The notes beneath the pieces were generated by a model. That model was given only the letters and a program-made list of their open reading frames with translations. It did no database searches and was not told the DNA's origin. A stretch of 64,000 nt of DNA from Hirudinaria manillensis (Eukaryota > Annelida > Clitellata > Hirudinida > Hirudinidae). The stretch's first letter is position 1. Each line of letters opens with the position of its first letter. Position numbers and translations under genes: made by a program. Of the stretch, positions 37,900-64,000 are shown in pieces. The stretch is from positions 6,797,501 to 6,861,500 of the forward strand of contig CM067529.1 of the NCBI GenBank assembly GCA_034509925.1. The letters are read 5' to 3'.

Positions 37900-37939
37900 G
37901 ACTCGGCCAGACTATCGCTCAGGGAGAGACGAGGCGCTC

Positions 37940-37944
37940 AAAAA
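37940..37944 (-). terminator. RNA polymerase III terminator of the first tRNA-Lys copy
   Basis: On the minus strand TTTTT begins 6 bases after the tRNA 3' end, a standard pol III stop; it recurs in every unit. A second T run (TTTTTT, then TTTT) lies about 110 bp further downstream in each complete spacer (38167-38172 in the first full one) and could act as a backup. Confidence 0.8.
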
Positions 37945-37949
37945 CCCGT

Positions 37950-38022
37950 CGCCCAACGTGGGGCTCGAACCCACGACCCTGAGATTAAGAGTCTCATGCT
38001 CTACCGACTGAGCTAGCCGGGC
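37950..38022 (-). tRNA. tRNA-Lys(CTT), copy 1 (reference copy)
   Basis: A 73-nt cloverleaf read on the minus strand. The acceptor stem GCCCGGC pairs with GTTGGGC (two G-U pairs) and the discriminator is G73. The D arm is GCTC/GAGC. The anticodon stem TGAGA/TCTCA encloses a loop with CTT, so it decodes AAG. The T arm contains GGGTTCGAGCCCC. Internal pol III promoters are intact: A box TAGCTCAGTCGG and B box GGTTCGAGCC. There is no intron and CCA is not encoded, as is normal for eukaryotes. The body is nearly identical to the vertebrate tRNA-Lys(CUU). This copy lies closest to the left edge of the array and is transcribed outward, toward the basonuclin-like gene. Confidence 0.98.
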
Positions 38023-59800: not shown

Positions 59801-62800
59801 TCGTCGGTTCCATCCGACTCGGCCAGACTATCGCTCAGGGAGAGACGAGGCGCTCAAAAACCCGTCGCCCAACGTGGGGCTCGAACCCACGACCCTGAGA
59901 TTAAGAGTCTCATGCTCTACCGACTGAGCTAGCCGGGCGGATGCCCTCCTACGGAGTTGCTTCGTCACGTCCCAATTTCCCAGGAATCGATCGCAGCCAA
60001 CGGTTACGAGATGCGCCGAGATTTACGTTCGTTATTTGGTATCGTTCGCCTTCCCACCAAATGCCTTTGCCGTCGTCTGGCCAAAAAAGAAAATGCCCTC
60101 GAATCCAGCAAGACACGGCCTCCGAGCAACGTCGTCGGTTCCATCCGACTCGGCCAGACTATCGCTCAGGGAGAGACGAGGCGCTCAAAAACCCGTCGCC
60201 CAACGTGGGGCTCGAACCCACGACCCTGAGATTAAGAGTCTCATGCTCTACCGACTGAGCTAGCCGGGCGGATGCCCTCCTACGGAGTTGCTTCGTCACG
60301 TCCCAATTTCCCAGGAATCGATCGCAGCCAACGGTTACGAGATGCGCCGAGATTTACGTTCGTTATTTGGTATCGTTCGCCTTCCCACCAAATGCCTTTG
60401 CCGTCGTCTGGCCAAAAAAGAAAATGCCCTCGAATCCAGCAAGACACGGCCTCCGAGCAACGTCGTCGGTTCCATCCGACTCGGCCAGACTATCGCTCAG
60501 GGAGAGACGAGGCGCTCAAAAACCCGTCGCCCAACGTGGGGCTCGAACCCACGACCCTGAGATTAAGAGTCTCATGCTCTACCGACTGAGCTAGCCGGGC
60601 GGATGCCCTCCTACGGAGTTGCTTCGTCACGTCCCAATTTCCCAGGAATCGATCGCAGCCAACGGTTACGAGATGCGCCGAGATTTACGTTCGTTATTTG
60701 GTATCGTTCGCCTTCCCACCAAATGCCTTTGCCGTCGTCTGGCCAAAAAAGAAAATGCCCTCGAATCCAGCAAGACACGGCCTCCGAGCAACGTCGTCGG
60801 TTCCATCCGACTCGGCCAGACTATCGCTCAGGGAGAGACGAGGCGCTCAAAAACCCGTCGCCCAACGTGGGGCTCGAACCCACGACCCTGAGATTAAGAG
60901 TCTCATGCTCTACCGACTGAGCTAGCCGGGCGGATGCCCTCCTACGGAGTTGCTTCGTCACGTCCCAATTTCCCAGGAATCGATCGCAGCCAACGGTTAC
61001 GAGATGCGCCGAGATTTACGTTCGTTATTTGGTATCGTTCGCCTTCCCACCAAATGCCTTTGCCGTCGTCTGGCCAAAAAAGAAAATGCCCTCGAATCCA
61101 GCAAGACACGGCCTCCGAGCAACGTCGTCGGTTCCATCCGACTCGGCCAGACTATCGCTCAGGGAGAGACGAGGCGCTCAAAAACCCGTCGCCCAACGTG
61201 GGGCTCGAACCCACGACCCTGAGATTAAGAGTCTCATGCTCTACCGACTGAGCTAGCCGGGCGGATGCCCTCCTACGGAGTTGCTTCGTCACGTCCCAAT
61301 TTCCCAGGAATCGATCGCAGCCAACGGTTACGAGATGCGCCGAGATTTACGTTCGTTATTTGGTATCGTTCGCCTTCCCACCAAATGCCTTTGCCGTCGT
61401 CTGGCCAAAAAAGAAAATGCCCTCGAATCCAGCAAGACACGGCCTCCGAGCAACGTCGTCGGTTCCATCCGACTCGGCCAGACTATCGCTCAGGGAGAGA
61501 CGAGGCGCTCAAAAACCCGTCGCCCAACGTGGGGCTCGAACCCACGACCCTGAGATTAAGAGTCTCATGCTCTACCGACTGAGCTAGCCGGGCGGATGCC
61601 CTCCTACGGAGTTGCTTCGTCACGTCCCAATTTCCCAGGAATCGATCGCAGCCAACGGTTACGAGATGCGCCGAGATTTACGTTCGTTATTTGGTATCGT
61701 TCGCCTTCCCACCAAATGCCTTTGCCGTCGTCTGGCCAAAAAAGAAAATGCCCTCGAATCCAGCAAGACACGGCCTCCGAGCAACGTCGTCGGTTCCATC
61801 CGACTCGGCCAGACTATCGCTCAGGGAGAGACGAGGCGCTCAAAAACCCGTCGCCCAACGTGGGGCTCGAACCCACGACCCTGAGATTAAGAGTCTCATG
61901 CTCTACCGACTGAGCTAGCCGGGCGGATGCCCTCCTACGGAGTTGCTTCGTCACGTCCCAATTTCCCAGGAATCGATCGCAGCCAACGGTTACGAGATGC
62001 GCCGAGATTTACGTTCGTTATTTGGTATCGTTCGCCTTCCCACCAAATGCCTTTGCCGTCGTCTGGCCAAAAAAGAAAATGCCCTCGAATCCAGCAAGAC
62101 ACGGCCTCCGAGCAACGTCGTCGGTTCCATCCGACTCGGCCAGACTATCGCTCAGGGAGAGACGAGGCGCTCAAAAACCCGTCGCCCAACGTGGGGCTCG
62201 AACCCACGACCCTGAGATTAAGAGTCTCATGCTCTACCGACTGAGCTAGCCGGGCGGATGCCCTCCTACGGAGTTGCTTCGTCACGTCCCAATTTCCCAG
62301 GAATCGATCGCAGCCAACGGTTACGAGATGCGCCGAGATTTACGTTCGTTATTTGGTATCGTTCGCCTTCCCACCAAATGCCTTTGCCGTCGTCTGGCCA
62401 AAAAAGAAAATGCCCTCGAATCCAGCAAGACACGGCCTCCGAGCAACGTCGTCGGTTCCATCCGACTCGGCCAGACTATCGCTCAGGGAGAGACGAGGCG
62501 CTCAAAAACCCGTCGCCCAACGTGGGGCTCGAACCCACGACCCTGAGATTAAGAGTCTCATGCTCTACCGACTGAGCTAGCCGGGCGGATGCCCTCCTAC
62601 GGAGTTGCTTCGTCACGTCCCAATTTCCCAGGAATCGATCGCAGCCAACGGTTACGAGATGCGCCGAGATTTACGTTCGTTATTTGGTATCGTTCGCCTT
62701 CCCACCAAATGCCTTTGCCGTCGTCTGGCCAAAAAAGAAAATGCCCTCGAATCCAGCAAGACACGGCCTCCGAGCAACGTCGTCGGTTCCATCCGACTCG

Positions 62801-63910
62801 GCCAGACTATCGCTCAGGGAGAGACGAGGCGCTCAAAAACCCGTCGCCCAACGTGGGGCTCGAACCCACGACCCTGAGATTAAGAGTCTCATGCTCTACC
62901 GACTGAGCTAGCCGGGCGGATGCCCTCCTACGGAGTTGCTTCGTCACGTCCCAATTTCCCAGGAATCGATCGCAGCCAACGGTTACGAGATGCGCCGAGA
63001 TTTACGTTCGTTATTTGGTATCGTTCGCCTTCCCACCAAATGCCTTTGCCGTCGTCTGGCCAAAAAAGAAAATGCCCTCGAATCCAGCAAGACACGGCCT
63101 CCGAGCAACGTCGTCGGTTCCATCCGACTCGGCCAGACTATCGCTCAGGGAGAGACGAGGCGCTCAAAAACCCGTCGCCCAACGTGGGGCTCGAACCCAC
63201 GACCCTGAGATTAAGAGTCTCATGCTCTACCGACTGAGCTAGCCGGGCGGATGCCCTCCTACGGAGTTGCTTCGTCACGTCCCAATTTCCCAGGAATCGA
63301 TCGCAGCCAACGGTTACGAGATGCGCCGAGATTTACGTTCGTTATTTGGTATCGTTCGCCTTCCCACCAAATGCCTTTGCCGTCGTCTGGCCAAAAAAGA
63401 AAATGCCCTCGAATCCAGCAAGACACGGCCTCCGAGCAACGTCGTCGGTTCCATCCGACTCGGCCAGACTATCGCTCAGGGAGAGACGAGGCGCTCAAAA
63501 ACCCGTCGCCCAACGTGGGGCTCGAACCCACGACCCTGAGATTAAGAGTCTCATGCTCTACCGACTGAGCTAGCCGGGCGGATGCCCTCCTACGGAGTTG
63601 CTTCGTCACGTCCCAATTTCCCAGGAATCGATCGCAGCCAACGGTTACGAGATGCGCCGAGATTTACGTTCGTTATTTGGTATCGTTCGCCTTCCCACCA
63701 AATGCCTTTGCCGTCGTCTGGCCAAAAAAGAAAATGCCCTCGAATCCAGCAAGACACGGCCTCCGAGCAACGTCGTCGGTTCCATCCGACTCGGCCAGAC
63801 TATCGCTCAGGGAGAGACGAGGCGCTCAAAAACCCGTCGCCCAACGTGGGGCTCGAACCCACGACCCTGAGATTAAGAGTCTCATGCTCTACCGACTGAG
63901 CTAGCCGGGC
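56887..63910 (-). tRNA. tRNA-Lys(CTT) copies 58-79
   Basis: Twenty-two reference-type genes at 56887+331k (k=0-21), the last at 63838-63910. The unit just before copy 58 is 330 bp because of a missing A. The window ends about 90 bp into the following spacer, so further copies to the right are expected. Confidence 0.96.
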
Positions 63911-64000
63911 GGATGCCCTCCTACGGAGTTGCTTCGTCACGTCCCAATTTCCCAGGAATCGATCGCAGCCAACGGTTACGAGATGCGCCGAGATTTACGT

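Follow-up and report, generated by a model that had tools for sequence, protein, structure and literature searches.

A long, near-uniform tRNA-Lys(CUU) array in the leech Hirudinaria manillensis, one of at least nine tRNA arrays in its genome

We analyzed a 64,000-bp stretch of the genome of the leech Hirudinaria manillensis (C4:6797501-6861500, hereafter the window), whose last 26 kb are occupied by tandem transfer RNA (tRNA) genes for lysine, tRNA-Lys(CUU). Tandem Repeats Finder reported positions 37900-64000 as one array with a period of 331 bp (78.6 copies, 96% matches), and ARAGORN called 79 tRNA genes there, every one of them tRNA-Lys(CTT) on the minus strand. Each 331-bp unit carries one gene, intact in nearly all units. 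The distance between successive unit starts (79 in the window) is exactly 331 bp in 73 of 78 intervals, 60 of the 78 complete units are identical to the letter, and the number of distinct unit sequences is 13. Together with the 40 kb that follow the window, the array comprises 148 unit starts and 147 complete units over ca. 48.8 kb, from C4:6835400 to 6884126; the assembly searched has 148,429,096 bases in 23 contigs. Its final stretch is 41 bp long (83% match, C4:6884126-6884166) and is followed by unique AT-rich sequence. The units outside the window were counted and compared via their spacers: among the 68 complete ones, 65 showed no difference, one measured 330 bp, and two differed at one or two places. 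The array is real, a tandem series of tRNA-Lys(CUU) genes on the minus strand in 331-bp units. The first-pass annotation of this DNA had described at least 79 such genes in an array of about 26 kb, head to tail, almost without divergence and running past the end of the window, and each of these points agrees with what we found.

The 73-bp gene folds into a cloverleaf, and Rfam family RF00005 matched each of the three copies within positions 1-38700, the stretch searched, with 65.1 bits (cut-off 29). In the first gene, two internal motifs are what we take to be the A and B boxes of an RNA polymerase III (Pol III) promoter, and a downstream T run is presumably a terminator, both judged by motif rules (Table 1). 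Runs of at least four T within 45 nt downstream were present in all ten array genes inspected, in this and the other arrays described below, tRNA-Sec included. The intact structure, the A and B boxes, and the T runs are features that active Pol III genes would have. The spacer showed no similarity to ca. 55 kb of flanking sequence.

Table 1. Features of the tRNA-Lys(CUU) array and its left neighbor, in window coordinates
Feature	Position	Strand	Basis
tRNA-Lys(CUU) tandem array, part within the window; 79 unit starts, 78 complete units	37900..64000	-	Tandem Repeats Finder, ARAGORN, unit counting
Array edge, units 1-34	37900..49224	-	17 of 34 units unlike the commonest unit
Array interior within the window, units 35-78	49225..63787	-	1 of 44 units unlike the commonest unit
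Unit 28, 399 bp, intact tRNA plus an extra damaged partial tRNA copy	46840..47238	-	Unit comparison
First tRNA-Lys(CUU) gene, 73 bp, cloverleaf intact	37950..38022	-	ARAGORN; Rfam RF00005, 65.1 bits; fold
A box, putative internal Pol III promoter of gene 1, TAGCTCAGTCGG	38004..38015	-	Read from sequence
B box, putative internal Pol III promoter of gene 1, GGTTCGAGCCC	37961..37971	-	Read from sequence
T5 run following gene 1, resembling a Pol III terminator	37940..37944	-	Read from sequence
Spacer between genes 1 and 2, 258 bp	38023..38280	.	GC 0.554 over all window spacers, gene bounds per ARAGORN
Left neighbor, 1014-aa open frame	33719..36763	+	Open reading frame; no Pfam family

An array of this regularity could have been expanded during assembly from one or a few units. 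The reported mean length of the high-fidelity (HiFi) reads in the H. manillensis assembly is 18.73 kb (PMC10671345), and the stretch of near-identical interior units is longer than that, so that the precise number of copies is uncertain and hinges on how the assembler treated them. Expansion from one or a few units is nevertheless extremely unlikely, since the flanking sequence is unique at both ends, variants are scattered across units 3-34, and several tRNAs are arranged alike with different periods, while an assembly error would not select tRNA genes.

The first-pass annotation also called a single-tRNA monomer array unusual; in this genome, it is not a lone case. Pattern and family searches with small samples (the best 63 of 10,475 and the best 53 of 10,413 candidates scored, so that all counts are lower bounds) revealed eight further tRNA arrays, each with a unit of its own, making at least nine in the genome. 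The tRNA-Lys(UUU) array has units of 281/286 bp, and its pattern had 159 exact matches, the first at C1:8399770. Thr-AGU and Leu-CAG lie in opposite directions in each 585-bp unit of an array at about C1:5585510-5629335 (ca. 75 units, judged by length). The arrays of Leu-UAG (326-bp unit, at least 24 copies), Gly-UCC (293-bp unit, at least 98 copies), and Ser-CGA (C11, 490-bp unit, at least 41 copies) have a single tRNA per unit, while Glu-UUC and Phe-GAA share a 400-bp unit on C2 (at least 95 copies). On C2, Ser-UGA and Ser-AGA genes are intermixed (a 1.5-kb sample contained six genes, and six matches were spread across 39 kb), and Glu-UUC with Arg-ACG occupies 465-bp units on C13 (a 1.3-kb sample, six matches across 42 kb); for these two arrays, we infer continuity from one short sample and six matches each. 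The repeats of the nine arrays thus hold one or two tRNA types, Ser-UGA/AGA being more mixed. In addition, tRNA-Sec is present as three tandem copies of 76 bits each (C2:12130380-12132195), with starts 1033 and 697 bp apart, so the isotypes found in the searches made are Lys, Thr, Leu, Gly, Ser, Glu, Phe, and Arg, plus the Sec triplet. Two further observations concern these repeats: decayed, irregularly spaced Gly-UCC units lie at C1:3386500-3388500 in the middle of an otherwise regular array, and a 5S ribosomal RNA array with a spacing of ca. 200 bp was seen at C6:6120088-6139823, where, among the best candidates, three copies reached 120 bits and many others scored lower and looked decayed.

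The T-arm pattern GGTTCRAHHCC, which does not fit the Lys-CUU gene, had 3692 matches in the genome versus 628 for the reversed control. Two other T-arm patterns, GGGTTCGAYYCCC and GGGTTCGAATCCC, had 677 and 171 matches versus 5 and 1, respectively. T-arms above background are therefore roughly 3,000, which is not a gene count. The Lys-UUU gene contains a 22-nt insertion at the usual place of an intron (C1, sample L013:377-471), and ARAGORN named it a stop tRNA in 109 of the 109 copies called, so automatic annotation may miss or misname tRNA-Lys(UUU). Since all 159 matches to its pattern are on one strand, and the 100 matches listed all fall within one array, that array is likely the only source of this tRNA, save divergent copies.

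The arrays are probably working Pol III genes for tRNA supply, the Lys-CUU array being one of at least nine that would have grown by tandem duplication and been homogenized by exchange. Arrays would arise by local tandem duplication; unequal crossing-over and gene conversion would then hold the units uniform, and selection would stop damaged tRNA copies from spreading, leaving spacer variants free to do so. Their main role would be bulk tRNA supply, to which the high copy number of the arrayed isoacceptors points when compared with the three copies of tRNA-Sec (all lower bounds). A special demand for decoding AAG, proposed in the first-pass annotation, can be set aside as the cause, since the reported relative synonymous codon usage of the two lysine codons is nearly even (AAG 1.019, AAA 0.981; PMC6050667) and the Lys-UUU array, with its 159 matches, is similar in size.

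Evidence for exchange comes from the distribution of variants. In the Lys-CUU array, they concentrate at the edge as compared with the interior (Table 1; the cut at unit 34 was set after inspecting the data). The spacer variants of units 3-4 (from 38562) recur in matching order in units 11-12 (from 41210), eight units further along, which looks like the copying of a whole block. The edge pattern, the sharing of variants, and the slipped partial tRNA in unit 28 are the pattern that unequal exchange gives, and unequal crossing-over and gene conversion are the likely reason why the units of an array stay alike. The first-pass description of a very large single-tRNA monomer array with satellite-like evolution holds. 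We also counted events against the commonest unit in 78 Lys-CUU units, 106 Lys-UUU units (one overlong unit set aside), and 17 + 22 Thr/Leu units from two pieces. In the three arrays pooled, the tRNA parts, 328 bp when the Lys-UUU intron is counted in, had 8 events and the spacers, 869 bp in all, had 59 (p 0.003), and none of the 8 tRNA events was common to two units versus 23 of the 59 spacer events (p 0.04). In these small numbers from three pooled arrays, spacer variants spread and tRNA variants stay single; selection would be what keeps damaged tRNA copies from spreading. Purifying selection could not be derived from the Lys-CUU array by itself, which shows no contrast between tRNA and spacer.

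The same homogeneity, together with the decay at the edge, resembles that of satellite DNA, and the array could be a selfish satellite with a captured tRNA gene. We regard this as very improbable: several isoacceptors own an array each, with unrelated spacers, damaged tRNA copies stay single in the pooled arrays, and no repeat common to both borders was listed when these were searched separately. No dispersed copies of the unit were reported in the genome search either (two of four candidates scored). A lone satellite with a captured tRNA is thus not supported, and the same search result, with the lack of similarity to the ca. 55 kb of flanks, gave no sign of a tRNA-derived short interspersed nuclear element.

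The spacers of the arrays have a high GC content. With the tRNAs removed, it is 0.554 in Lys-CUU, 0.514 in Lys-UUU, 0.569 in Thr/Leu, 0.523 in Leu-UAG, 0.541 in Gly-UCC, 0.477 in Ser-CGA, and 0.529 in Ser-UGA/AGA, and the decayed part of the Gly array has 0.533. The samples of Glu-UUC/Phe-GAA and Glu-UUC/Arg-ACG, tRNAs included, have 0.55 and 0.558. Ten flank pieces of at least 1 kb (one inside another) range from 0.277 to 0.352, and the tRNA-Sec spacers, uneven in length, are near this background (0.373). The bias common to the spacers is suggestive of GC-biased conversion accompanying frequent exchange; such exchange, perhaps with GC-biased repair, would have brought the spacers to ca. 48-57% GC versus ca. 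28-35% in the flanks. The eight units that we compared have only tRNA parts in common, other matches being at chance level, and no shared promoter element upstream of the arrays was seen by eye among them.

It is also conceivable that the arrays are a conditional reserve, with most copies silent in most cells and switched on only during a particular stage, for example oogenesis, or in a particular tissue, for example the salivary gland. Precedents have been reported, namely, the SYY cluster of Arabidopsis, silent in most tissues but active in root tips, and oocyte-specific tandem tRNA genes in Xenopus. However, tRNA-Lys(UUU), which is always needed, seems to have no source beyond its array, save divergent copies, and the arrays show no CpG depletion (observed/expected 1.11-1.43), although most flanks are not depleted either (0.76-1.21). 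We therefore consider a conditional reserve rather unlikely. Silencing by CpG methylation was itself dropped as a candidate, since the CpG ratio does not clearly set the arrays apart from the flanks.

A number of observations weigh against the proposal of working arrays homogenized by exchange under selection. To begin with, being arrayed does not guarantee activity, since the tRNA clusters of Arabidopsis are reportedly silent for the most part. Not every tRNA is arrayed: unlike the other Ser tRNAs, Ser-GCU has one good copy (C2:7323466-7323548, 66.3 bits) and no array, while a second copy is poor (C2:12888036-12888119, 42.8 bits) and has no T run downstream. From the best candidates of the search with the Sec model, Ser-GCU looks near single-copy. 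A single Gly-UCC copy lies outside the Gly-UCC array, the matches to pattern GGTTCGAMTCCKG (82 versus 11 in the control) are mostly at scattered single places, so that dispersed tRNA-like sites exist too, and the T-arm pattern GGTTCGAWHCCGG gave 13 matches in the genome versus 8 in the control and no array. Regarding selection, the Lys-CUU array alone has 3 events in 73 bp of tRNA versus 9 in 258 bp of spacer (p 0.73), and the 59 pooled spacer events are somewhat inflated by the Lys-UUU alignment beside insertions and by counting Thr/Leu in two pieces. The uniformity of the interior can partly reflect the assembler repeating one unit over a middle that it could not resolve. As for base composition, four of the seven spacer GC values (Leu-UAG, Gly-UCC, Ser-CGA, and Ser-UGA/AGA) come from 357-996 bases each, and three pieces of 110-300 bases beside arrays, which may lie partly within them, have GC contents of 0.218, 0.423, and 0.477. 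Finally, the directions of the variants lean weakly toward GC-biased conversion: singletons comprise 14 changes from G or C to A or T versus 7 in the opposite sense (p 0.19), and counting the shared variants as well gives 27 versus 12 (p 0.024), for which the implied equilibrium GC is 0.36, but these include events that are not independent, the direction of mutation being taken from the majority.

The array sits between two gene-like regions. On its left is a 1014-aa open frame that by eye we take to resemble a zinc-finger protein of the basonuclin/disco type, and the 67-aa frame on its right looks HMG-box-like to us; a Pfam search of both frames found no family and supported neither assignment. 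This position might suggest a chromatin boundary or nuclear-organizing element whose tRNA output matters little, a role proposed for a human tRNA repeat (PMC4041453). We find it improbable, since a boundary requires neither as many as 148 copies nor that each array carry a tRNA of its own, the eight units compared have nothing but tRNA in common beyond chance, and the tRNA is the least changed part in the pooled arrays. Neither this reading nor the selfish one gained positive evidence in the analysis, which drew on no chromatin or population data. Elsewhere in the window, there are two microsatellites (ATGG, 141 copies at 29062-29625, and CAAC, 56 copies at 1688-1910, both from Tandem Repeats Finder) and an open frame at 4440-5171 with a SUEL lectin match below the cut-off (25.5 bits versus 31.4). 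Outside it, the genome contains a hirudin match (PF00713, 33.9 bits, cut-off 25).

Returning to the tRNA-supply role, the results suggest that much of the tRNA supply of the leech is encoded in long self-homogenizing arrays. A much wider statement, which we offer tentatively and hold to be rather doubtful, is that this annelid has much of its working tRNA gene set in long homogenized arrays, the sole source for some isoacceptors, and that exchange and GC-biased repair set the spacer GC at ca. 48-57% versus ca. 33% around; array length and spacer GC would then record the recombination rate of each tRNA locus, and supply could be tuned by array length. If true, an annelid would join Entamoeba and Hydractinia with a large share of its tRNA genes in long arrays, pointing to a repeated origin of such arrays and suggesting that they collapse in older assemblies. 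The Hirudo medicinalis draft has 429 predicted tRNA genes versus ca. 3,000 T-arm matches above the control here, a comparison that is only suggestive because species and measures differ. The shared GC enrichment of unrelated spacers is a natural experiment on biased gene conversion. Moreover, the leech, which can be kept and bred, would allow studies of how copy number changes, how repeats evolve in concert, and how tRNA dosage affects translation.

Tandem tRNA genes are known elsewhere, and a 3.18-kb tDNA repeat reportedly exists in Xenopus. According to a survey of 74 eukaryotes, large tRNA clusters arose independently many times (PMC2888827). Entamoeba (PMC2652664) resembles the leech in having tandem near-identical units, some written with one tRNA gene. 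However, almost all its tRNA genes are arrayed, up to five per unit, over more than 10% of the genome, and some units contain 5S. E. histolytica and E. dispar also have short tandem repeats between the genes, while Tandem Repeats Finder listed none in the leech array, where 331 bp is the only period in 37900-64000. Hydractinia (PMC11067881) has tandem arrays of non-coding RNAs, but it is a cnidarian and not an annelid, and U1, U2, U5, U6, and U3 are arrayed there too. Plant clusters (PMC12652284) also repeat one tRNA gene in tandem (27 tRNA-Pro in Arabidopsis, 28 tRNA-Ile in maize), but both named cases are under 30 copies; Arabidopsis has most of its tRNA genes dispersed, and its clusters are reportedly mostly silent. 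The human 1q23.3 repeat (PMC4041453) is, like those of the leech, a GC-rich homogeneous tRNA tandem repeat in an animal, and its copy number is unstable; it differs in that the unit measures 7.3 kb, contains several tRNAs together with a CTCF site, and is present in 9-43 copies at one locus. The literature searched yielded no account of arrayed tRNA genes in leeches or other annelids, although the supplementary tables of the three-leech paper, with thousands of non-coding RNA genes, may hold one. The main text of the H. manillensis HiFi assembly paper (PMC10671345) has no mention of tRNA. The kind of organization is thus known from Entamoeba and Hydractinia, and what is new, as far as the literature was searched, is the annelid case, its size, and the GC bias shared by the spacers.

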